IMG/VR virus record: IMGVR_UViG_3300031707_000094
Coordinates: 1 to 34,429 of that record
DNA: 34,429 nucleotides
Strand: one strand, 5' to 3'
DNA from: a virus
A model generated the notes under the pieces. It had not been told where the DNA came from. It searched no databases and saw only the letters and a list, made by a program, of their open reading frames with translations. Shown here in pieces: positions 1,171 through 32,171 of the stretch (positions are counted from its first letter, which is position 1; each line of letters begins with the position of its first letter). The translations under genes were made by a program, and so were the position numbers.

Positions 1171-2844
1171 CTAATTATCCCTCAGTCCTGATATGCAGTA
1201 CAGCAGGGACCAAACAGCCACCGCCGCTGCAATAAGGCCCAGGCAAATAGCTGCCACTGCCAAAGCCGCGTTGGCAGTACTATCAACGAGTCCGCCACCG
1301 CCGTTGTTCGGGACAACCGACGGAATCTCTGGCGTCTGAGTTATCGCCGGGGTCGCCGTTACCGCAGGTACCAGCGTCGGTGTAAGCGTAGGCGTGAACG
1401 TAGGCGTCTGTGGTGGCCTAGGCGTCGGGGTTATGATCACGGTAGGGGTAACCTTAGGCGGTGACGTTGGGGTAGCCCTAGGCGTGACCACAGGCGTTAC
1501 CGAAGGAACCGCGGTCGGCCTCGGGGCTGGCGTCTTGGTTGGTTCGGGAACGGGTATGTACGTCGGCACCGGTGTCGGTTCGACAGTCGGTTCTGGTGTC
1601 ACTGTAGGTTCCGGTGTTGGCGTAGGCGTCGGGCATGCTCCCTCAACTAAGCCCTGCTGCGCAGCTTCGAACTCAGTGACCTCGATTGTCTGACCATCGA
1701 CGCACACGGTAATGAGGCCGCAATCGTCGGTGTCAACCAGCCCAGAATCATCACGTACATTGGTAGGATATGCCCCGTTGTAGCAGATGTCGTGAAAATC
1801 ACATGCATCACCCAGGCCATCACCATCTGTATCGGCCTGGGTTGGGTTAACGACACTAATGCAATTGTCTACATCGCCACAGATGCCGTCGGTTTCGATG
1901 TCATTATTGGGGTCGTTTGGGCAGAGGTCGCCGCAGTCGGCGGTACCATCATCGTCGGTGTCGGTGTCAACAATTCCACATCCACAAGCACCTAGCGTGA
2001 TTTTGGTGGAATCAGCGGGGCATGCGTCATTGCAGTCGGCAGTACCGTCGCTGTCGGAATCAGTGTCAGCAGTACCGCAGCCACAGATGCCGGCCTCGGT
2101 CTTGCCAGGGTCGGCAGGACACTGGTCCTCGCAGTCGAGAACGCCGTCGTTGTCACTATCGGTATCAGCCACCTCACAACCGCAGATGCCTGGCCCGACC
2201 TTATCAGAGTCAGCGGGGCATAGGTCATTACAGTCAGCCGTGCCATCGCCATCAGAATCAATATCGGTGGTACCACAACCACAGATACCAGGCGTGGTCT
2301 TACCGAAGTCGGCAGGACACTGATCGTTACAGTCTGAAACGCCGTCGCCATCGGAATCAGTATCGGCCATGTTGCAACCGCAGGTACCCGGAACGATCTT
2401 AGCAGGATCGCTAGGGCACCGGTCGTGGCAATCGAGGGCGCCATCGTTGTCGGTGTCGGGGAAGCCCTCGTCGACCAGGGTGTCGCCGTCGTTGTCGAGG
2501 CCGTCGCAGGTCTCGGTCGGAACCACACAACCATTATTCCATATCGCTCGGCCCGCCGCGTCCCAGTTCTTGCCGACAAAGGTGCAGAGCACCCCATCTT
2601 TGTCGGTGTACTCATACGACGGGATAATGTCCGCGCCATGCTCGCTCTCGTGACTGTTCTTGTTGCGGCCAGCCGCTGCGAAGTCAACGTTCTTCAGTTC
2701 ATAGCCGTTTTTGGCTGTGTCCGCCGGGTTCGCGTGACAGATGTCCACCTTGTGTTCGACCTTAGCCGTCACCGCACTCGTGGACAGCACAAGAGCAGTC
2801 GCCAGGGCTAGTCCCACTAGTGCTCCTAGCAATAACCTCTTCAT
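1171..2844 (-). CDS. Secreted, membrane-anchored surface protein with thrombospondin type 3 repeats
   Basis: A 557-residue protein. Residues 1-28 form a signal peptide (basic MKRLLLGALVGLALATALVL). Residues 30-85 hold an ICHANP...H...DIIPSY region seen in bacterial surface proteins. A MopE-like CDGLDNDGDTLVDE sits near 113-126. Residues 130-350 carry at least five copies of a 34-36-residue unit of the form CPADxxKxxPGxCGCGxxDxDSDGDGxxDC: thrombospondin type 3 calcium-binding repeats with regular cysteines. Residues 404-508 are a Pro-Thr-rich linker, and 526-549 a membrane anchor followed by a short cytoplasmic tail. It would sit on the host surface, stiffened by calcium. AGAGGAGG precedes the ATG, and promoter copy 1 lies just upstream. 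Surface modification or superinfection exclusion is plausible but unproven. Confidence 0.85.
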   Translation of the reverse strand: MKRLLLGALVGLALATALVLSTSAVTAKVEHKVDICHANPADTAKNGYELKNVDFAAAGRNKNSHESEHGADIIPSYEYTDKDGVLCTFVGKNWDAAGRAIWNNGCVVPTETCDGLDNDGDTLVDEGFPDTDNDGALDCHDRCPSDPAKIVPGTCGCNMADTDSDGDGVSDCNDQCPADFGKTTPGICGCGTTDIDSDGDGTADCNDLCPADSDKVGPGICGCEVADTDSDNDGVLDCEDQCPADPGKTEAGICGCGTADTDSDSDGTADCNDACPADSTKITLGACGCGIVDTDTDDDGTADCGDLCPNDPNNDIETDGICGDVDNCISVVNPTQADTDGDGLGDACDFHDICYNGAYPTNVRDDSGLVDTDDCGLITVCVDGQTIEVTEFEAAQQGLVEGACPTPTPTPEPTVTPEPTVEPTPVPTYIPVPEPTKTPAPRPTAVPSVTPVVTPRATPTSPPKVTPTVIITPTPRPPQTPTFTPTLTPTLVPAVTATPAITQTPEIPSVVPNNGGGGLVDSTANAALAVAAICLGLIAAAVAVWSLLYCISGLRDN

Positions 2845-18421: not shown

Positions 18422-19273
18422 TTAACCTACCGGTGTATCGTCCCAGTCCACGGCCAGTTTCCCGTCTGGCGTAGCGTAGATGTTAAGAACCCGACACTGA
18501 CCCGACGGCGGATCAGAGACAATTCCCTCCCCAGCCGTAATCAACTCACTCTTCGGGATCGTTGTCCAAGTATGCTTGGCGCTCCGGATCACCACGTCAC
18601 CAGGCTGAGGTGTCTTATCTACTGCGAACCCACCACCACCCACGTTTATTATACCACGTCCTACAGGCCCGCGTTCACCCTTCGGACCAACCACGGTCTC
18701 GCCAGGCGGACCTGGTGGACCAACGATGCTGTCGCCCTTCTCGCCCCGTGGTCCAACGATGGTCTCGCCGGGAGGACCGGATGGTCCGACGATGCTCTCG
18801 CCAGGAGGGCCGGGTGGGCCGACCACGGTCTCACATGGAGGACCAGGCGGACCGACAACAGTATCACCCATATCGCCCTTCGGACCAACGACACTCTTAC
18901 CGGGAGGACCGGATGGTCCGACGATGCTCTCGCCAGGAGGGCCGGGTGGGCCGATGATACTCTCGCTGGACGGTCCAGCCTCCAGGATGATCGGTTCGGG
19001 TCCTTCGTTATCAGCGACAGGTAGTTCAACAGGCGATTCGACAACTGTCTCTGGAGCCGGTTCGTACCTGTAACCACGGCTCGCCAACTCAGCCAAAACG
19101 AGATCACGTACGGCCGCGGCATTCTCAGTTGGCGCTTCCATTTTGGTCAGAGTGGAAAGCGCAGTTCGCATCTGATGATGCACCTCAAGTAGGTTATCAT
19201 CGCTGCACTGTCGCAGCATCCCGACGACTTCTACCCGGTCCAGTTTTGTTTCGCCGATCTGAGTCATGAGCAT
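18422..19273 (-). CDS. Collagen-like virion protein with 11-residue repeats
   Basis: 283 residues from ATG 19273 (ATG 19267 is an alternative). Residues 1-70 are helical ([20 protein letters not shown]). A Pro/Glu-rich stretch leads to about nine repeats of the form [11 protein letters not shown], i.e. three Gly-X-Y triplets plus two hydrophobic residues, a periodicity of 11 rather than 3. One repeat has [11 protein letters not shown], Cys where Gly is expected. The C-terminal domain ([37 protein letters not shown]) ends in the motif shared with the two paralogues downstream. Collagen-like phage proteins usually form trimeric fibres. Confidence 0.8.
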
Positions 19274-19280
19274 CAGTTCC

Positions 19281-22200
19281 TTATACAGGGAATGCCTTTC
19301 GACGTGCCCATCCGCCCATTGAGTAGCCGCGGATCTTGCCTTCCTTGACCAATCGCCATCCGAGGTCGTTCCACACGACCCCCATGAACACGCTGTTCGC
19401 CGGAATGACGTGAGTAACATGCTCGCCTGTTGGCAAATCCATGTCAATCTTGGTCTCAAACGGCCAAGACACGATGTCGACCCACTCGCCGATCGTTGTC
19501 ATAGAACCCGTGACGAGTCCGTGCTGGAGATAGATGTTCCGGTCATTAGAACGCACGTAGTTCCACTGAGAATTTTGAAGCGTGTCTGCCGTCACGGCCT
19601 CGTTGTGCGCATCGAACTCAGGGTCCTTGAGTTGGTCATCGGTCGCCTTGTAGAGAATGCCAAAGGTGTACCGTTTCTCGTCAGTGGCCTTGACAAACTT
19701 CGTAAAGAACTCGCCGTCAATCTTGGCGTCAACATCTGTCCACGCCAGCAGCTTTGGCTGGTCCTCGGCCTTGTTCGAGAGCGTCTGTCCGTCGCTACCA
19801 AACTCGCCGAAGTCTACCTTCTCGCCGGCCTTGAGAGCATCGATTGTGGGTCGCCCGATATGTGCAAAGATCAACCGTTCAACGCCTGCGGCCTTCGCCT
19901 TCTGACTTACCTGAAGCACGTTCATGTGACCGCCTACGCCGCCAGCAAAATGAATCGGTTGACCCCAGCTCGCGGCGTCAGCAAACATGATGTACGCGTC
20001 CTTGGCCCAGGCCGGAAACTCGAAGAACTCCGGTGCCCATACGACCTGAGTTTTGCCGTCGTCAATCACGTAGCCAAACGTCTTGTGACCTGTGTGCTTG
20101 GTCGGCTCCATGGTTATCGCCAGGCCGCCCTTGCGGAAGGAACTGTTGCGCCCGACCGTGCCGTGTGCCTTCGCCATGGCTCGACGTGTTGCCGTCTGTT
20201 CATCGCCAGAGTCGGTCCACAACCAAGCATCCAGAGCGCCATCGGGTTCGCTCTTGCCGATGCTGTTCTTGCCTCCGTCAAACATCACGCGCACGTCGCC
20301 GCATTCTACCAGCAGTCCGGCCGGCTTGTACTTCGGCGAGTCCTCTGCGCCCACGCCCAACAGCGTTAGTTTCATGCCGGCTGCCTTGGTTGTACGCCGA
20401 CCCTTGCCCACCATATCATCAAGAACCGCCCACTGATCAACATCCTTGATGTCCAACGCCGCGAGTAGGTCATCGCCGTGATCGGCCAGGGTAATGAAGT
20501 ACGGGCCGTGTGTTTCGTCACCCCACACGAGGTACTTCTGGTCCTTGCCCCGTAGTTCCTTGATAACGTCTGCCAACTTGTGCGCCGCGGCGTAGGGCAC
20601 GGTACCGGTCGGTCTGTCAACCAACCACACCCGCTGACCGCCGCCCATCGGCGCAAACATGATGACAAGACGGCCCTTGAGTTTACCGTCCTGCATGAAC
20701 AACTCGAGCATGTGTTCGCGAGCACAACCCAGCCGGTAGTGTCCCGTCGTCTGTGCAAAGAACCGCGCCCACTTCTGGGACGTCGCACCCACCTCTGCCG
20801 GAGCGCTCGAGTACGGCTTACCAACGCCGACGTCCAGCCATCCCTTCGGCTGGGCCAGTTTCCACGTACCCTGGAGGTTGTCATCTGGATTCCAGTCAAT
20901 CAACCGGTCGTGATTCGGCAGACCCTTGTTATCGGTGACCTTACCGAGAAAGACCGTAAACCCGAACAGTGCATCGTCGCCCTCGAACCGCGCATCGCCG
21001 TGCAGCGAGTGGTCAGTGTTAAGCAGGTCGGCCTCTAGCAACTTGGCCTCGTCCGCGCCGAGTCCACGCCAGTGATGCTGGTAGACGTAACGCCCGCTGC
21101 CATCAGAAGGCAATGCGTCGAACCAACCTGCGCGCCAGTATGTCTCGCCGTTGGTCTCGTCGTCGTTACTCGCTGCTGCATGTACCGGACTCAACTTAGA
21201 AATGCCAGCCAGTTTTACCGCGTCTGCCACGTCGCCATGGAACTTACCATAGAACTGAGACTGCTTCTGACCCGAACGCAGAAGCGCACTCGGGTGGTAG
21301 GTCACGACGATCGGTGTGCCCCCGGGCGTCTTGTAGTCCTTCCCGCGCCACTCGTCAATCGACGGAAGTATCTCACCCGTCAGCGCCCCAGCCGCGATCG
21401 CGCTGATGGCGAGTACTGCCTTTAGGTGCGGCAACTTGTCGAGTTGTCGTAGCATAAGTGTACCGCGTTCCTCCAGTGTGCCCTCGCCGCTACCGTCATA
21501 AACGTTGGCCCACCAGACCTGCTCGGGGTCCACGCCCATGCCAGTCAGAACCTTGCGCAGGAAGATACCGCTCGGCCCAACCAGCGGCCGTCCTTCTTGA
21601 CGTTCAATCCTCCCAGGACCATCGCCCACAATCGCCAACGCCGCATCGTTCGGACCGTAGGGCAATACCGGCTTGCTACCGCCGGCGACCGACATTCGAG
21701 CCTCGTCCGGCTCGTTGTCATCGTCGTCCTTCTTGAGCATCTCCTTCAACACGCCGAACCGCCGGCACAGACTAATGGCCTGGGTCAACGTGTAAGGACC
21801 GCGCGACTTGTCAGGACCCAGCGGTGTCGGCTTGCCCCAGGCAGCCGTGCCGTCGGGATAGAGAAGCAACTCCTCGATTCCCACGTTCAGCGTGTCACCG
21901 ATCTCGGCCAGTTTCTCCTTGCTTACGAAGGTCTTGCCTAGCGGGAAAACGCCGTCACCATCGAGTTCCATTAGACCCGCTAGGGGCGAGTCAAGCGGCA
22001 CCGATAGGCCGCACTCGTAGACCCAACCATTGGTTACTGGAATAGGCTTAATGACCACAACCTTGAGTTCCACGTAGATCTTGCTCTTGGCGTAGTCATC
22101 GGTGGCGCCGAACGTGTAAGGCATCGACAGTGTTCGCGTCACGATGCCCTCGACTGCCGGACCCGGGAACGCCAGTGCCTTCTTGGTAGCCGCAAAAAGC

Positions 22201-23891
22201 TCGGCCTCTGTCTTGACCGAGACCTGCGGCAGTACGATAAACCGGCTGCCGCCGACCGCCCGTTTCCACGCCTTCAGGTACTCGAGTCGGTCAACGAACG
22301 GTTCGGTGTGAACGTCAACGTCGTTGAAATACAACACATCGTACATGAACACGTAGAAGTCAGCCTTCACGTTACCGGCCAACGCCGACAGAACGTCCGG
22401 CCGGGCCAGAAACTTGCCACCGGCCTTGGCACAGAGTTCACCCTCTACGATGTAGGTCGTGTCTGCGTTCTTGAGTTGGTCAACCAGGTCAGGTACCTGC
22501 TTTGAGCGATCCTCCTGAGCGTCTTCCAGATAGATCAGCGGGTCCTTCCCCGGTGCCCCGTGAAACATCGCACGTAGTCCGTCGACCTTGGGTGACACAA
22601 GCAGAGAACCTTGCTCGGTGACCTTCTTTTCGCCCCAGTCCTTCCACAACTCAGTCACGTCCTTGAAGTCAGTGTACCCCAGCATTGTCGGCTTCTGTGC
22701 CTGGTACCGTGTATAGGGTTTGAGCGTGATCTTTGTAAACGGCGCCTCAGGTGGTTCCTCTGGTCGCGCCAACCGGGCCAGCGCCGCTGAACGCATCTGA
22801 AACGTGTCGCCGTCATGCGCAACTTCGCCGAACGGAATACGTTCGCCAGCCTTAAGTGCCGCGAGTACCGTCCGTCCTGCACCCACAAATACCAGTCGCT
22901 TAACTTCATGCCGCTTAGCAAACTCGGCGATAGTCAGTAGAGCCATGTGTCCACCGTCTGCAAACCGAGTTGTTCGATTCCAGGCCATCGCCCCTGCGAA
23001 CATGAGGTCCGCACCATCGGCTATACCCGGAAACTCGAGGAACCGCGGAGCCCACACGACCTTGCGGTTAGCGGCCGTAACAACGTAGGCGTAAGTCTCG
23101 TGTGCCTTGTGCCGCACCGCCCGAGGTTCAATTGACACGTCGCCAGAGTAGAAGAAACTCACGACCGGAGCCGCGTTGTGCCCCTCTGCGGTATCACGGA
23201 TCTCGCGCATTCCGATATGCTGCGGGTCCGTCACGAGCCAGGCGTCAATGTCACCCGTAGGCGCACCGTTATCAAGCATCACGCGCCGGCCACCACACTC
23301 CACCAGTAGTCCAGGATGCTGCGTCGTGCCCATGAGCGTAAAGCGCAGTCCACCAGAGGCCTTGATCAGTTCAACCTCACCGTCACTCACGCGCAACACC
23401 AGGTCGAACAGCGGCATGTAAGGTCCGTCATGCGGTCCCTGTGGATTGAACAACAGATGCAGATCCTTGCCGGTCTTGTTTGGATCCAGCATTCGCCTGA
23501 CCAACAGGTACAGGTTCTCGCGCCAGTACTTCGGTTGGTCAACGTCGTCGCGGATCAGCACATCAAGGTCATGCGCCTCATCCAACCCCAGGCGCGTCGC
23601 ACTACCTACGACTGATACGTAGTCCGGTACGAGGACCAGATCGCGTTCCTTAAAGTTAGGCGCTGGATACTGAGGTTGACCCGCCTCGATCGGCGTCTGG
23701 TGTTTCATCCCGCGCCGTGTCATCTCGGCCGCAATCCAATCATGTGCCGTCACAATGGCCTCTACCGCGCGCCCGTTCGACACCGCGTCTGTGTAGGCCT
23801 CGTGAGTCTGTCGATGCAACGCCAATAGTTCAACCGGAAAGAGACGTCGCAATTGACGCGGCGTAATACTCGCTAGATCAAGTGTTGCCAT
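19281..23891 (-). CDS. 1536-residue fusion: nucleotidyltransferase-like, DNA ligase, UDG-like, LigD phosphoesterase-like and XkdF-type protease
   Basis: Order by residue. 85-170: nucleotidyltransferase signature VVGSATR, DLDVLI (108-110), LFDLV (163). 180-365: degenerate metallo-beta-lactamase-like region. 400-700: ATP-dependent DNA ligase with SPKVDGLR (nucleophile Lys435), IVEGEL, VFMYDV, VEGIVTR, VELKVV, then an OB-like domain ([15 protein letters not shown]). 748-890: family-4-like uracil-DNA glycosylase, [17 protein letters not shown] and TYHPSALLR. 920-1125: LigD-type 3'-phosphoesterase, RYVYQHH and LHGDARFE (His964, Asp966, Arg968). 1172-1372: a second metallo-beta-lactamase-like region related to the first. 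1397-1533: XkdF-type assembly protease, [11 protein letters not shown], His1457, Ser1524 in GYSMGG. It lies in the virion module at the place of an assembly protease. The individual domains are firm to moderate; the joint function is inference. Confidence 0.85.
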
Positions 23892-26178: not shown

Positions 26179-27798
26179 CTATTCGACCGCTGACGGCACT
26201 GTAAAAACATCTACCTGTTTTAAGGTGATCTTGGTTACCATAAACGGTAGATCAGCCCATCGAGAAACCTGTTCGCTCGACACCACTTCAAATTGACCGC
26301 TCAAGATGACCTCGTGTTCCCATATCGTTTGAGAAGCCGCAGAAATTGGTAGTCCTCGATGAGCCTCAACTACATATTCCACGCCACCTGCCAAATTAGG
26401 ATTGGCTCTGAGCGCGTCTAGTTCCGGCAAAAACCCACCGGCATGTCCCTCTGAGTACGAAGCCGAACCAAGAGGAATATCAATGGTTTCTCCCACAACG
26501 TGTTTCGCTACAAAAGACTTTTCAACCTCTGCGGTGGGAAACTCCAGGCCCCGATAAACGGGTTCTGTTTGAAGAGGCTGTTTGCTAATCGTGTTTAGAA
26601 GTATCCGCGCACGATCTGCATACTCCTTATCAAACTCTGGTTGGCCTTGAAGTATGTGAGTAGCCATGTCCCGAGTTCTTCCAGCACCATCCATGTGCTG
26701 AGCGTATGCTCCAATCGCGTCCAACATATCGCGGCCCTCTGGAGTCTGACTCAATGTTTGTCTGGTCGCCGCATTGATCTGCTCTGCCACAGCCTCTGTA
26801 CTATTGTAGAGCTGGTTACTCGCATCTGTCAGCAACATTCCCTGTGGATCCACCAAGCCCATCTCAGGAATTGACACCGAGCTCGGTGGCGGTAACCAAC
26901 CCTGAGTATTAGCTCCAACGTCGCATCGGCAGTTAGGATGAAACGGCGGCATCGGCCCGGTCCGAAAGCCCGTCGCAATATCTACCCAGCCCTCTGCCGC
27001 GGCGTCCATACAAGTATCGCATACCGGGTTAATGCTCGCTGCTGGCGACCCTGCGGCCGTCAGTAACCGATACTCATCGATGCCATTTTGTTTCATGGTG
27101 TTCAACGCCGTCTCACCGTAGGCCCGGGCAGTCTCAGTACGTGCGATCTGCTCAGCCTTCCATGATGCGACGTCACCCAGTTGATCTTTTACCTGCCCGG
27201 CCGCCTGCGCGATCGTCATCGGATTACGCGGGTCGGTTGCGTTGACCAACATACCGGCCACGTCCTGCGCGTGGGTTCCGGCAACGTTGCCAAGCATAGC
27301 CTCAGAGTCACTAACAAGACCAGGATACAGTTCTCGCCACATGGCCTCGGTGTCGGTCCACACTACCTGCGTTAGACCAAGGTCCCCAGCCGCGGCTAGC
27401 GAACCAGCCTGCGCCGCCCCAGCCAACGCTGCCTTGAGTTCCTCTGGTGACACGTCCATGGCGTCAGCAACCATTGGACCTAGGATGGCGTTGACCTGCG
27501 CCGAAAGATCGGTATAACTGGCCTTCGCCATACTGGCCGGCGTCGCGCCCTGCGCCGCCCACAACTGTCGAGCCACCACCACGAGTCCCGAGATCTTGAG
27601 CGAATCATCCATGTGCGCAATGAACTTCTTAGCCGCGGCCTGAACCCGTAGTTCAGTTGTACGCCGCCGCAACGCTTGAGTCTCCCAACTCACGTGCGAT
27701 GTTCGAGAGGCCTTCCAGAGCCACTGAAGATGCTGGTGTAGTTTGAACACCTGCGCCCTCAGTTGCTTGCGCCTAGTGGGAGTGATCTGTATCGTCAC
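26179..27798 (-). CDS. Phage Mu gpF / SPP1 gp7-like head morphogenesis protein fused to ADP-ribosyltransferase
   Basis: 539 residues from GTG 27798 (GAGGAAC nine bases upstream). Residues 200-295 hold the minor head protein signature: IARTETARAYGETAL, CDTC at 260-263 and PPFHPNCRC at 284-292. Residues 400-530 read as an R-S-E class mono-ADP-ribosyltransferase: Arg416 in VYRGLEF, SASYS at 445-449, and the E-x-E pair EHE at 494-496. Portal-associated ejected proteins with such toxin-like domains are known in other phages. They are thought to enter the host with the DNA and modify host enzymes. It overlaps the portal gene end by 26 bases, and four tiny genes follow. Confidence 0.85.
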   Translation of the reverse strand: MTIQITPTRRKQLRAQVFKLHQHLQWLWKASRTSHVSWETQALRRRTTELRVQAAAKKFIAHMDDSLKISGLVVVARQLWAAQGATPASMAKASYTDLSAQVNAILGPMVADAMDVSPEELKAALAGAAQAGSLAAAGDLGLTQVVWTDTEAMWRELYPGLVSDSEAMLGNVAGTHAQDVAGMLVNATDPRNPMTIAQAAGQVKDQLGDVASWKAEQIARTETARAYGETALNTMKQNGIDEYRLLTAAGSPAASINPVCDTCMDAAAEGWVDIATGFRTGPMPPFHPNCRCDVGANTQGWLPPPSSVSIPEMGLVDPQGMLLTDASNQLYNSTEAVAEQINAATRQTLSQTPEGRDMLDAIGAYAQHMDGAGRTRDMATHILQGQPEFDKEYADRARILLNTISKQPLQTEPVYRGLEFPTAEVEKSFVAKHVVGETIDIPLGSASYSEGHAGGFLPELDALRANPNLAGGVEYVVEAHRGLPISAASQTIWEHEVILSGQFEVVSSEQVSRWADLPFMVTKITLKQVDVFTVPSAVE

Positions 27799-29293
27799 GC
27801 GCCATCAGTTCCTCAACGTCTGTACTCAAGGCCTGCATGAGTTCATCTGCGGCCTCGAGTCGCTTGATGATTTCCTCCTCCATGTGTAGGCCCAACGGAT
27901 GGTCTACCGTCGCAGCCGCCACAACAGGGGCGCCTCCGAACTGCGCCAAGAACTCAGCAAGCGTGACATCAAGTCCGTCGCGATCTCCTAGACCCAACCG
28001 AGAACGCCCCTCATTCAGTGTAATGAGGTTAGACTTAACCTGGATTGTAATCACGTTGGTGTCCATGAGTTCGTCTGACAGGTCCAAAGACTCAAGCGTG
28101 GCTTCCCACTGAAGGTCGGTACTAGCGGGTAGTCCCTTGGCCTTCGGATACTCCACCGCCAAGAACTTGTTCAGCCGGTCACACAGGACAGTTTGTCCCG
28201 GGGAGACCACGCCGTTCTTGTAAGCGAAGATGATGTCGGCTGTCACGCTGCCTCCCAGCGAACCACGGGTTACATAGCCCAACCTGTCGGGCGGCATTCG
28301 ATGCGCGATGAGAATGTTACGGTCAGTCAATTCTAGCAGACGCGTAAAGTGCAGATCATTCTGGGGCAGGGTCATGCGTTCCACGGTCACGTTCACGCCA
28401 GCGCCGGCGATAGGCAGGATCAAGTTACGGTGCGGATCCGCGCCAGCCGCATGCTGGGTCTTGAGTTCCTCGGTCAGGTTATTGGCCAGTTGTTCAAGCT
28501 TATCTTCGTCAACGCCGCTGATCACGATCAAGTGACGCGGTTCCCGAGCGTTGCTGAAGAACTTAACGTTGTAATCACGGGCCGCAAGGGCCAGTGCGAT
28601 GTGTCCCAACGCTGCAATGTAGGCCGGGATCCCGTACCACGTCGACCGCCGAGACGGCTTGCGGAAGACAAGAAACTCATTGGCAAGTTTATCGAACCCG
28701 ACGCCTTGCCAAGCCATGCGCCCGTCGCTAGCCAAGATTTGTTCCTCGAAGGTGTTCCACCGCTTGAACCAGATGAACCTGCCGCCACGCATCTGGAGAA
28801 ACCGCTTGTTATCTTCATGCGCCCTAACGGTGTGCGCCGGTACGTGCCACATCTTGCGCACAATACCGCTGGGGTCACGTCCAACCTCAAGAATTCCCCA
28901 GCCAACTGTCTCGTAGTCCAGCCACATGGCCTCGAGGATCTCAATGAACGTGGCGTCACACGCCAATCCCTCCAGCCAGGCCTGCATCTCGTCTTTGTAC
29001 ACCTCGTTGGCTTCCTCAATCAGAGGATTCCATTCGACCCCTGACGCGATAACATCAACAGCCTTCTGTTCCAAGGCCGCCGCATGTATCGGGTGTGACT
29101 CGGACAACAACACGAGTTGTTCCAGCGAGTAAGGAGGCATCCTGACCAGAGTGCCGTACGTCGCCATGCCCGTGAACGGGTCTTCAGTCAGCTGCTTAGA
29201 CCGCACCTCGTCGTTGGGATCTACGAAGGCCTTGGCCTCAGACCCCCACCAGACGGCCTTGATAAGACGCTTGGGCTCCTCTTCGTCTGCCAT
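27773..29293 (-). CDS. Portal protein
   Basis: 506 residues from ATG 29293, two bases after the preceding stop. The pattern is that of a phage portal (SPP1/DUF935-like): acidic start, GILEVGRDPSG, LANEFLVFRKPSRRS, YGIPAYIAALGHIALA, then HRMPPDRLGYVTRGSLGGS (wing and stem region), and a C-terminal acidic coiled helix (EEIIKRLEAADELMQALS). It forms the dodecameric DNA gate in the head vertex. Immediately followed by the Mu-gpF-like gene, the normal order. Confidence 0.85.
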   Translation of the reverse strand: MADEEEPKRLIKAVWWGSEAKAFVDPNDEVRSKQLTEDPFTGMATYGTLVRMPPYSLEQLVLLSESHPIHAAALEQKAVDVIASGVEWNPLIEEANEVYKDEMQAWLEGLACDATFIEILEAMWLDYETVGWGILEVGRDPSGIVRKMWHVPAHTVRAHEDNKRFLQMRGGRFIWFKRWNTFEEQILASDGRMAWQGVGFDKLANEFLVFRKPSRRSTWYGIPAYIAALGHIALALAARDYNVKFFSNAREPRHLIVISGVDEDKLEQLANNLTEELKTQHAAGADPHRNLILPIAGAGVNVTVERMTLPQNDLHFTRLLELTDRNILIAHRMPPDRLGYVTRGSLGGSVTADIIFAYKNGVVSPGQTVLCDRLNKFLAVEYPKAKGLPASTDLQWEATLESLDLSDELMDTNVITIQVKSNLITLNEGRSRLGLGDRDGLDVTLAEFLAQFGGAPVVAAATVDHPLGLHMEEEIIKRLEAADELMQALSTDVEELMARDDTDHSH

Positions 29294-29295
29294 CT

Positions 29296-29697
29296 TTACA
29301 ACTCCAGTTCTACTCTCATGTTGTATGCCGCCGCGGCAATCCACGCGATGAGTCTAACCTCATCCCGACCGAACAAGTCGGCAGAGGCCCCTGTACGACT
29401 CACGTCGTACGTCGCCAAGGGATGACACCGCATCACGCCCGCCGGTCCGTCAATATCAGCGTCAATGAAGACCCGAAAGTCACCCTCATCGGCCTGCCGC
29501 CATCCCACGTGCCAGTGTATCACAGTTAACAACCCGCGGTTAACCTGCCGTCTAGCACGCTTAACCAGGCCCTCAACGTGCCTAACAACAGGATAAATGA
29601 CGCCCTGCCCGGCTGCCAACCCTAGTTTAACCTCGCGCCTAGAGCGGCCGTCCCGGGTTTTGGTCCACTGACCTACGCATTTGCCCACAGATGCCAT
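29296..29697 (-). CDS. Hypothetical 133-residue protein before the portal
   Basis: Candidate start ATG 29697; its ribosome-binding site is poor, and the reading frame follows directly from the 49-bp repeat region. N-terminus basic (KTRDGRSRREVKLGLAAGQG), middle VIYPVVRHVEGLVKRARRQV, later FRVFIDADIDGPAGVMRCH and a helical end (EVRLIAWIAAAAYNMRVELE). A tail-completion or head-closure role (HK97 gp10 type) is conceivable from size. Family not proven. Confidence 0.55.
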   Translation of the reverse strand: MASVGKCVGQWTKTRDGRSRREVKLGLAAGQGVIYPVVRHVEGLVKRARRQVNRGLLTVIHWHVGWRQADEGDFRVFIDADIDGPAGVMRCHPLATYDVSRTGASADLFGRDEVRLIAWIAAAAYNMRVELEL

Positions 29698-30794: not shown

Positions 30795-32171
30795 TCAGAA
30801 TCTAATGATCGGAAGCGGCTTGCCTCCGTGGAACTTCGTTCTCCCTGCAGCCACCTGCCAGGCCAGGGCAATCGCCACGATCTCGTCAGGTGGATGCCCG
30901 GTACCATACAGGTCATTCCGTAGACAGTAACGATGAGCCGCCATGAGAGACGTCGCCCGCGGCAAAACAATGTCACCCTTCTCGGCAGCCGTCTCGTAGT
31001 CAATGAACATCTTGCTCTTGTTACGTCCGCTGATCACGTAGTCAATGACGTGCGCTTCAATGTATGAAGCTACCACGTCGCCCAACCCCGTTGCATCATG
31101 AATTCCCTTGCCCGGGTACCGCGTCATGCGGTCATTGAAGTGCCGGATCAGTAGTGGCCAAGGCTCGCGCCACCGTCGTTCGTAGGCCACTAACCGCGCC
31201 GGCGCACAGTCAACTCGCAGCGTTGCAATGGCGGTCAAGTCCCGCTTCCGCGCCCAGTCTGCCGAGGTAATGTAACTGGCGCCCTTTTTCGGTGACTCTA
31301 TCTCATAGTACTGATTCAACATATCGTTCAGAGGCTCGCCCCGGAACAGCATGTCAAGCATCAGTTGACTAAAAACTGAACCACCCTCGCTCGGCGTCTC
31401 GAGTTCGTACTCAACGCGCCACATCGAATCTGAGACCTCAGTGCGCTTGCGTTCTATCTCAGACGCCGGCAGCCAACTGCCCGGATTGTCATCGTGCTTG
31501 ATCACCTCGCGCCAACACCAACGTCGCACTGGCCAACCACGATCATTGGCCCGCTTGAGCACCTCGGTCATCGTACCCGACTCGTGCTGGTGCGTCGAGA
31601 CGATCACAGTCTGCGCTGGCAACGTCGTGTCAGTCGTCAATGTCTGGCCCATAGCGGCGTCCAGAATCCTGAGATCCATCTCGTCGGCTTCGTCCAACCG
31701 CAGACGATGAGGGTGAGGACCACGTGCCGACCGCTGCGATGCCATCAACGCCCGCGCCCAGTTTCCTATTTTAGTCTTCGTGACCCATGACCCCGGCTCG
31801 GTTGCCAGGTAGATGTCGGTTGCCGTCGTGTAGGAATTACCGAGCGAGATCTCATGTCGCCAAGCATAACCCATTGCTTCGTGCACGCGCCGAGACTGTT
31901 CACCCGAACCGCCGAGTACCACAACGTTAAACCCACCCAGTAACTCGAGACTCGCCAACGCCGCTAGCATCATCGTCTTGCCTGACCCGCGCGTGGCGTG
32001 CCAGACAGTGATAGGCGCCGGTGCAAAGAACGCCTCGCACAGGGCGTCAAAGGGAGCAACGTGTTCTGGACAACAACCACGTTCGGGAAAGGTGAGACCA
32101 AATCCCTTCTTGAGAGTTTCCCGAAGGTCGTTCTCGGTCTCGAGTTTAAGTCGAAATGGTTCCGATTCCAC
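30795..32171 (-). CDS. terL: Large terminase subunit
   Basis: 458 residues from GTG 32171, overlapping the RusA-like stop. ATPase half: Walker A HATRGSGKT at 58-66, Walker B HRLRLDEADE near 155-163, and STHQHESGT at 192-200 as coupling motif. Nuclease half (RNase H fold): Asp305 in ITSADWARKR, Asp359 in GIHDATGLGD and Asp429 in GHPPDEIVAIALA. It cuts concatemeric DNA and pumps it into the head. The length is at the short end of the family, but both halves are complete. No small terminase was identified. Confidence 0.95.
   Translation of the reverse strand: MESEPFRLKLETENDLRETLKKGFGLTFPERGCCPEHVAPFDALCEAFFAPAPITVWHATRGSGKTMMLAALASLELLGGFNVVVLGGSGEQSRRVHEAMGYAWRHEISLGNSYTTATDIYLATEPGSWVTKTKIGNWARALMASQRSARGPHPHRLRLDEADEMDLRILDAAMGQTLTTDTTLPAQTVIVSTHQHESGTMTEVLKRANDRGWPVRRWCWREVIKHDDNPGSWLPASEIERKRTEVSDSMWRVEYELETPSEGGSVFSQLMLDMLFRGEPLNDMLNQYYEIESPKKGASYITSADWARKRDLTAIATLRVDCAPARLVAYERRWREPWPLLIRHFNDRMTRYPGKGIHDATGLGDVVASYIEAHVIDYVISGRNKSKMFIDYETAAEKGDIVLPRATSLMAAHRYCLRNDLYGTGHPPDEIVAIALAWQVAAGRTKFHGGKPLPIIRF

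Follow-up and report, generated by a model that had tools for sequence, protein, structure and literature searches.

A giant phage protein joins a head-maturation protease to a LigD-like block of DNA-repair domains, a possible cargo of the virion

The 34,429-nucleotide virus record IMGVR_UViG_3300031707_000094 of IMG/VR (34.4 kb, analysed whole and called the window below) encodes a single protein of 1536 residues, P0001, in which an XkdF-type head-maturation protease forms the C-terminus of a chain of DNA-repair domains. From the N-terminus, the chain comprises a helical motif, a nucleotidyltransferase (NTase)-like domain, a first metallo-beta-lactamase-like domain (MBL1), an ATP-dependent DNA ligase with its OB domain, a uracil-DNA glycosylase (UDG), a 3'-phosphoesterase (PE), a second metallo-beta-lactamase-like domain (MBL2) and XkdF. 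We observed this domain content, the position of the gene in the head module, a sole XkdF in the record, recurrence of the architecture, and the dispensability of ligase, UDG and PE in a sister phage; we put the chances at about even that P0001 is a protease-borne, LigD-like and Ku-less kit that would be loaded into the head and delivered with the genome. A broader proposal, which we hold more tentatively and at somewhat under even chances, is that in tailed viruses of bacteria and archaea the maturation protease acts as loader and release switch for a recurrent, previously undescribed, Ku-independent LigD-like machine for healing ends and nicks, fitted with exchangeable counter-defence slots, that would enter alongside the genome and act ahead of its expression. 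The initial annotation of this DNA had described a single 1536-residue protein; its coordinates proved exact and its strand, unstated there, is minus. The features of the protein, with the evidence used to place them (pLDDT, predicted local distance difference test), are as follows.

19281..23891, minus strand: complete open reading frame (ORF) of 1536 residues (P0001), one unbroken reading frame
23694..23867, minus strand: N-terminal helical motif, residues ~9-66, LH...H....EM.RRGM (alignment; helices with pLDDT 80-90)
23382..23654, minus strand: Pol-beta-type NTase-like domain, residues ~80-170, with G96-S97, D108xD110 and D163 (motif conservation)
22776..23360, minus strand: MBL1, degenerate metallo-beta-lactamase fold, residues ~178-372, in the variable slot (Lactamase_B_2)
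22071..22730, minus strand: ATP-dependent DNA ligase adenylation domain, residues ~388-607, with Lys435 (Pfam; motif alignment)
21729..22070, minus strand: C-terminal OB-like domain of the ligase, residues ~608-721 (alignment; 58% identity to the tail of the sister-phage protein P0005)
21204..21680, minus strand: family-4/UdgX-like UDG domain, residues ~738-896, with D757, N796 and H866 (Pfam, PDB, NCBIfam)
20502..21149, minus strand: LigD-type PE, residues ~915-1130, with H939/H940, H964, D966, R968, E970 and H1060 (family alignment, AlphaFold, Foldseek)
19779..20390, minus strand: MBL2, degenerate metallo-beta-lactamase fold, residues ~1168-1371 (Lactamase_B_2)
19293..19706, minus strand: XkdF / Peptidase_S78_2 head-maturation protease, residues ~1396-1533, with D1427, H1457 and S1524 (Pfam, PHROG, alignments)

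Pfam matches to P0001 above the curated cut-offs comprised UDG, DNA_ligase_A_M, Lactamase_B_2 and Peptidase_S78_2. DNA_ligase_A_M covered residues 427-604 with 42.6 bits (cut-off 26.2), and the ligase motifs follow in order, with Lys435 in KVDG, motif III VEGEL at 482, IIIa YDVLYF at 517, IV EGIVTR at 581 and V YAKSK at 600; the Lys and most of these motifs are retained in all ligase-bearing members of the family that we aligned. UDG covered residues 744-881 (51.6 bits against a cut-off of 24.3, 1.4e-13), with a sequence match to the family-4 enzyme of PDB entry 1ui0 at 7e-11 and an NCBIfam match to UdgX/family 4. N796 and H866 are kept, the motif-A acid is Asp757 where family-4 enzymes have Glu, and no Cys occurs anywhere in the P0001 UDG segment, so that the four Fe-S cluster cysteines of family 4 are absent. 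These two domains of the initial annotation, a ligase with Lys435, motifs III to V and an OB fold and a family-4-like UDG, were recovered, with altered residues to which we return below.

The PE segment is confirmed by family and fold as a predicted LigD-type 3'-phosphoesterase. Searches with P0001 against Pfam, NCBIfam, PDB sequences and the LigD_N/TIGR02777 profiles gave no match for this segment, and its relatives gave weak, sub-threshold LigD_N/TIGR02777 matches. An AlphaFold model built from nine family sequences reached pLDDT 82 and a predicted template-modelling score (pTM) of 0.79, and a Foldseek search of PDB with this model returned five significant matches, all to LigD 3'-phosphoesterases (3n9b, 3p43, 3n9d and 3p4h among them; E 1.7e-5 to 3.6e-4, probability 1.00), the next, unrelated match lying at E 0.11. 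One of the five PE models was good (pLDDT 82 versus 57 and lower), and the fold assignment rests on that best model together with the specificity of its PDB matches. The catalytic pattern, His...HxDxR...distal His, is conserved in all nine aligned relatives, to which the PE of the window is 39-52% identical. Alignment to LigD PE by hhalign, with single-sequence and small-family inputs, fell in the right register with statistics barely above those of shuffled sequences and is not used as proof; the model had no significant match among the BFVD viral models, and tblastn with the PE, MBL and NTase segments found no match in 50,697 phage records. The resemblance to LigD that had been drawn from the combination of ligase, phosphoesterase and nucleotidyl transfer is borne out both by this fold match and by the ligases of several relatives, which score best or near-best with models of LigD and non-homologous end joining (NHEJ).

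The remaining enzyme-like regions are less secure. The proposed nucleotidyltransferase-like region has the support of its motif: GS...DxD...D is mostly kept across 9 relatives, while the AlphaFold model was poor (pLDDT 61) and had no PDB match, so that the region is Pol-beta-like at the level of its motif only. Lactamase_B_2 matched P0001 in two stretches (37.5 bits against a cut-off of 27), and MBL1 and MBL2 are 39% identical to each other (6e-41), in line with the two degenerate metallo-beta-lactamase-like regions of the initial annotation. The N-terminal helical motif is common to most relatives of P0001 in our alignment and is a putative head-targeting module. A stand-alone 100-aa protein with a similar helical LH module (GMKHQTP) is encoded on a 101 kb phage contig (L092:3118-3420).

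The C-terminal XkdF is shown by sequence and position to be the head-maturation protease of the window phage. Peptidase_S78_2/XkdF matched residues 1398-1531 with 27.9 bits (cut-off 24), alignments show the catalytic residues H1457 (LQH) and S1524 (GYSxGG) to be kept, and in a search of the relatives' records P0001 scored 33 bits and relatives up to 118. Eight records each contained exactly one XkdF, always within the giant protein, and no Peptidase_S78 was found in any of the eight. Upstream of the giant ORF, on the same strand, lie recognizable packaging and head genes, in agreement with the virion-module location claimed for it:

30795..32171, minus strand: terminase large subunit (TerL) gene (phrog_2, 8.4e-15)
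27773..29344, minus strand: portal gene (phrog_12, 1.6e-31)
26179..27798, minus strand: MuF-like head morphogenesis gene

A PHROG search that detected TerL, portal and MuF clearly did not recognize a major capsid protein (MCP) gene in the window (phrog_1005 absent); either this lineage has a very divergent capsid gene, or that gene lay outside those tested.

The same architecture recurs in other phages. Scans of IMG/VR with the whole protein and with single segments found no relatives because the exact 8-mers used were too strict. An alignment of the two MBLs as query retrieved one contig, L086, which belongs to a syntenic sister phage (TerL 68%, portal 70%, MuF 51% and a 219-aa protein 62% identical). 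Its ortholog of the giant protein, P0005, has 900 aa and contains the helical N-terminus, NTase, one MBL, the ligase OB tail and XkdF; it lacks the ligase core, UDG, PE and MBL2, an absence that qualifies the repair reading. Since a phage with conserved TerL, portal and MuF does without them, the ligase core, UDG and PE are cargo rather than assembly parts.

A DNA-level motif scan of IMG/VR for the PE signature HWRG-x20-HxDxRFE found 19 places; nine had the exact spacing of the window, and all nine lay in proteins of the giant-protein family. One scan of GTDB genomes added L203, a contig from a Chloroflexota metagenome-assembled genome (MAG), and L204, from a Methanothrix MAG. Across both databases, the core order NTase-[variable slot]-ligase-(UDG)-PE-XkdF recurs in several divergent lineages, and the full order including UDG is found in three distinct ones (the window; L199/L200; L191/L194/L204). 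Loci inside one lineage are not independent; the L200 contig ends inside PE, the start of L194 is missing, and L184 and L198 are partial close copies. Other members lack parts of the set: L193 and L196 have no UDG, L186 has UDG-PE-XkdF with a barely recognizable ligase, and L203 lacks both UDG and XkdF. In the relatives the gene order is TerL-portal-MuF-[giant protein]-...-MCP, with portal and major capsid clear on both sides of the giant gene in L196 and L193, and TerL and MuF also present in L196.

The contents of the variable slot differ between lineages, with an MBL in the window, a methyltransferase in L196 and L199, a Dam-type methyltransferase in L200, and an Acb1 domain plus a methyltransferase in L193; L203 carries two Dam-type methyltransferase copies ahead of the NTase. 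The anti-CBASS (cyclic-oligonucleotide-based antiphage signalling system) domain Acb1 in L193 scored 79.6 bits in Pfam. In that protein (L193:3237-7445, minus strand), Acb1 occupies residues 420-560 of a head-protease polyprotein with intact-looking HxT motifs. L203:5743-10831 encodes overlapping neighbours, the first with an intact MBL and a helical module and the second with two Dam-type methyltransferases-NTase-ligase-PE. The second chain has a zinc ribbon where XkdF would be, and the contig has a MuF gene; the arrangement is a split version of the same system.

The protease has also been joined to other domains. In a tree of XkdF sequences, the window XkdF groups with XkdF proteins that carry 2H phosphoesterase or Zeta-toxin domains, other members of its subfamily, and is separated from the XkdF of L199, L196, L193, L191 and L186 by a branch of 3.6 changes per site with support 93/100; the tree is small with long branches, and its ul36-type row, cut at the wrong end, was ignored. 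This is suggestive of a toolkit joined to the protease more than once, or of a protease that may have diverged very far. That the toolkit occurs on two distant XkdF subfamilies is what selection for the linkage itself would be expected to produce. Relatives of XkdF were found in 403 IMG/VR stretches and, with the same patterns, in 0 GTDB genomes. In L029, L053 and L073, XkdF is followed by a Zeta-toxin kinase domain at the C-terminus (79-104 bits), which makes these proteins putative toxins of the virion module. We had also considered proteins annotated as 'DNA methyltransferase/prohead protease' as precedents for such fusions, and rejected them: the examples examined, those of Lactococcus 56701, RHph_Y1_11 and PPSC2, are XkdF with no methyltransferase. 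The family phrog_1530 and the genes at L206:4878-5927, L207:5016-5654 and L208:3305-3757 are named 'DNA methyltransferase' or 'DNA methyltransferase/prohead protease', yet are XkdF proteases lacking a methyltransferase, and the name looks like a propagated misannotation. Likewise, phrog_14859, named 'RNA ligase', is a 2H phosphoesterase-XkdF fusion.

In the reading we favour, the giant protein would be built into the prohead through its protease and helical N-terminus, and at maturation XkdF would cut the chain. The small protease fragments would leave or decay, whereas the large folded enzymes would be retained among the packaged DNA and reach the cell along with it. There, 3' ends would be cleaned, filled in or extended by a nucleotide, and nicks, gaps or ends sealed, mending damage from packaging, the extracellular phase or host nucleases ahead of all phage gene expression. 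The UDG-like domain may serve in lesion recognition, and the slots, occupied in the window by the degenerate MBL pair, may hold exchangeable counter-defence functions. The cargo is probably broader than repair, some relatives holding Acb1 and methyltransferases in the same chain.

Several observations weigh against virion-borne delivery of an active repair kit. We infer, rather than observe, prohead incorporation, self-cleavage, retention and ejection, as well as the enzyme activities of the P0001 domains. Moreover, several cargo domains look weakened. The HxHxDH metal motif is absent from MBL1 and MBL2 (TDSGDEQ in MBL2), and both are predicted from this motif to be catalytically dead; because the stand-alone MBL adjoining the L203 relative retains THAHPDH, these losses in the window look secondary. 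The UDG acid, Asp in P0001, is gone altogether in relatives. In ligase motif IV, Arg replaces the usual Lys. L191/L204/L200 lack the third carboxylate of the NTase, and P0005 has Asn in place of the second Asp of DxD. In addition, the toolkit of L203 and of the archaeal virus ANMV-1 is on a chain that does not include XkdF. A search of 10 records, several of which are fragments, found no Ku, and we dropped the idea of a Ku-dependent NHEJ system on this ground.

The alternative that survives best, though we consider it unlikely, is that the enzymes work inside the prohead or at the portal during packaging, so that fusion to the protease serves only to place them where heads are assembled and nothing is delivered to the next host. 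Nicks and gaps must be removed before packaging in tailed phages such as T4, and both the location of the gene between MuF and MCP and a protease fusion that by its design brings the domains into the prohead fit such a role; however, the Acb1 and methyltransferase slots are easier to explain in a new host than inside a prohead, and the sister phage has the same packaging genes without the enzyme domains. Slightly less likely still is that the N-terminal domains are decayed enzymes retained as bulk, mostly filling the prohead in a scaffold-like or DNA-binding role and catalysing little or nothing. The missing metal ligands of both MBLs, the replaced UDG acid of relatives and the NTase carboxylates lost in some members point this way, as do the loss of the ligase core in the sister and its faintness in L186, and Lactococcus phages of the ul36 type fuse XkdF to a coiled, scaffold-like C-terminus. 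Against this stand the catalytic residues of PE, kept in 9/9 relatives, and the ligase Lys and most ligase motifs, kept in every ligase-bearing member aligned; these would not persist otherwise, which argues for selection for catalysis.

We regard as improbable that counter-defence is the main role of the protein, which would then degrade or bind nucleotide signals, restore nuclease-cut DNA and methylate DNA. Acb1 in L193 and the Dam-type or other methyltransferases of L199, L200, L196 and L203 would suit this role, the MBL fold is used by cyclic-nucleotide phosphodiesterases (the NF041851 match being weak), and polyvalent proteins offer a precedent (PMC5512222); but what stays constant across the family is NTase-ligase-PE rather than the anti-defence slot, and P0001 has no PADLOC match and MBLs without metal ligands. 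Finally, despite the very long chain on a metagenomic contig and an exact architecture with MBL2 that occurs at full length in no other record, an assembly or frameshift artefact joining separate genes is very improbable and, for the core architecture, refuted by the core order itself, which recurs across different samples in three or more independent lineages, and by the syntenic ortholog P0005, which spans both ends in one frame; the exact MBL2 insertion was seen only in the window.

If delivery of a protease-borne kit is correct, mending the incoming genome would be a task of the virion, and the maturation protease would serve a second purpose as a loader of cargo. Phages are known to inject protein effectors. 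A virion-borne anti-CBASS Acb1 would act at once on entry, and the cargo slot, which already shows this one known anti-CBASS domain, could be mined for others. Such loading also offers a reason for the puzzling extra domains on many XkdF proteins.

Around the giant gene, further features of the window may be noted. The ORF starts with ATG at 23891, just after GAGAGGG and the stop codon of the preceding gene. Directly downstream (18422-19273, minus strand) the window encodes a collagen-like protein with GPPGES repeats, whose N-terminus (NLLEVHHQM...) resembles the helical LH module of the giant protein, a hint that the module may target proteins to the same place. At 1171-2844 (minus strand) a protein of 557 aa is encoded that looks secreted; it has calcium-binding repeats of the thrombospondin type (DxDxDGxxD) and a tail rich in Pro/Thr, which is unusual for a phage.

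Among known systems, bacterial LigD likewise combines an ATP-dependent ligase, a 3'-phosphoesterase and a nucleotidyl-transfer domain in one chain. Its polymerase is of the archaeo-eukaryotic primase (AEP) type, whereas the NTase of P0001 is Pol-beta-like by motif (GS...DxD); P0001 differs further in its order NTase-ligase-UDG-PE, its head-protease fusion and the absence of Ku. Corndog-type phages have been reported to recircularize by NHEJ with a phage Ku (PMC4351075), and end repair of incoming phage DNA is thus a known need, although here Ku is absent and the virus supplies the ligase. Similar in content is AJP62006 of ANMV-1, a virus of anaerobic methanotrophic archaea (ANME), an 866-aa NTase-ligase-PE protein (NTase and PE by motif) adjoining a protein with a MuF-like C-terminus, also read by motif. 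Unlike P0001, it has no UDG or XkdF in the chain and is annotated solely as an ATP-dependent DNA ligase. Arthrobacter and Microbacterium phages (Kovu gp20, for example) encode 2H-phosphoesterase-XkdF proteins in the same genomic slot. In these an enzyme domain likewise lies on the N-terminal side of an XkdF of the window's subfamily, but they have ~380 aa, one RNA-type 2H enzyme and no DNA-repair block, and are annotated as RNA ligase or aldolase. A 17.3 kDa 'putative methyltransferase' (ORF53) was detected by mass spectrometry in virions of Pakpunavirus SCUT-S2 (PMC6521218); by size and gene order, it would correspond to the XkdF gene of phage PPSC2. PMC full text gave no description of a fusion of UDG, ligase and maturation protease, nor of a LigD-type phosphoesterase with phage capsid genes. 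For the polyvalent proteins of phages and conjugative elements, packaging, cleavage by a peptidase of their own and injection have been proposed (PMC5512222). Like P0001, they are large and multidomain, are encoded near late genes, and mix peptidase, NTase, methylase and anti-defence domains. The text of that paper does not mention UDG or XkdF, names 'prohead protease' once and ligases in passing, and its processing peptidases are mostly zincin-like, whereas in P0001 the peptidase is the head-maturation protease itself, joined to a LigD-like block. As a multidomain effector chain with a peptidase domain, encoded among virion genes, the giant protein is probably a polyvalent protein, with an unusual and recurrent domain combination.

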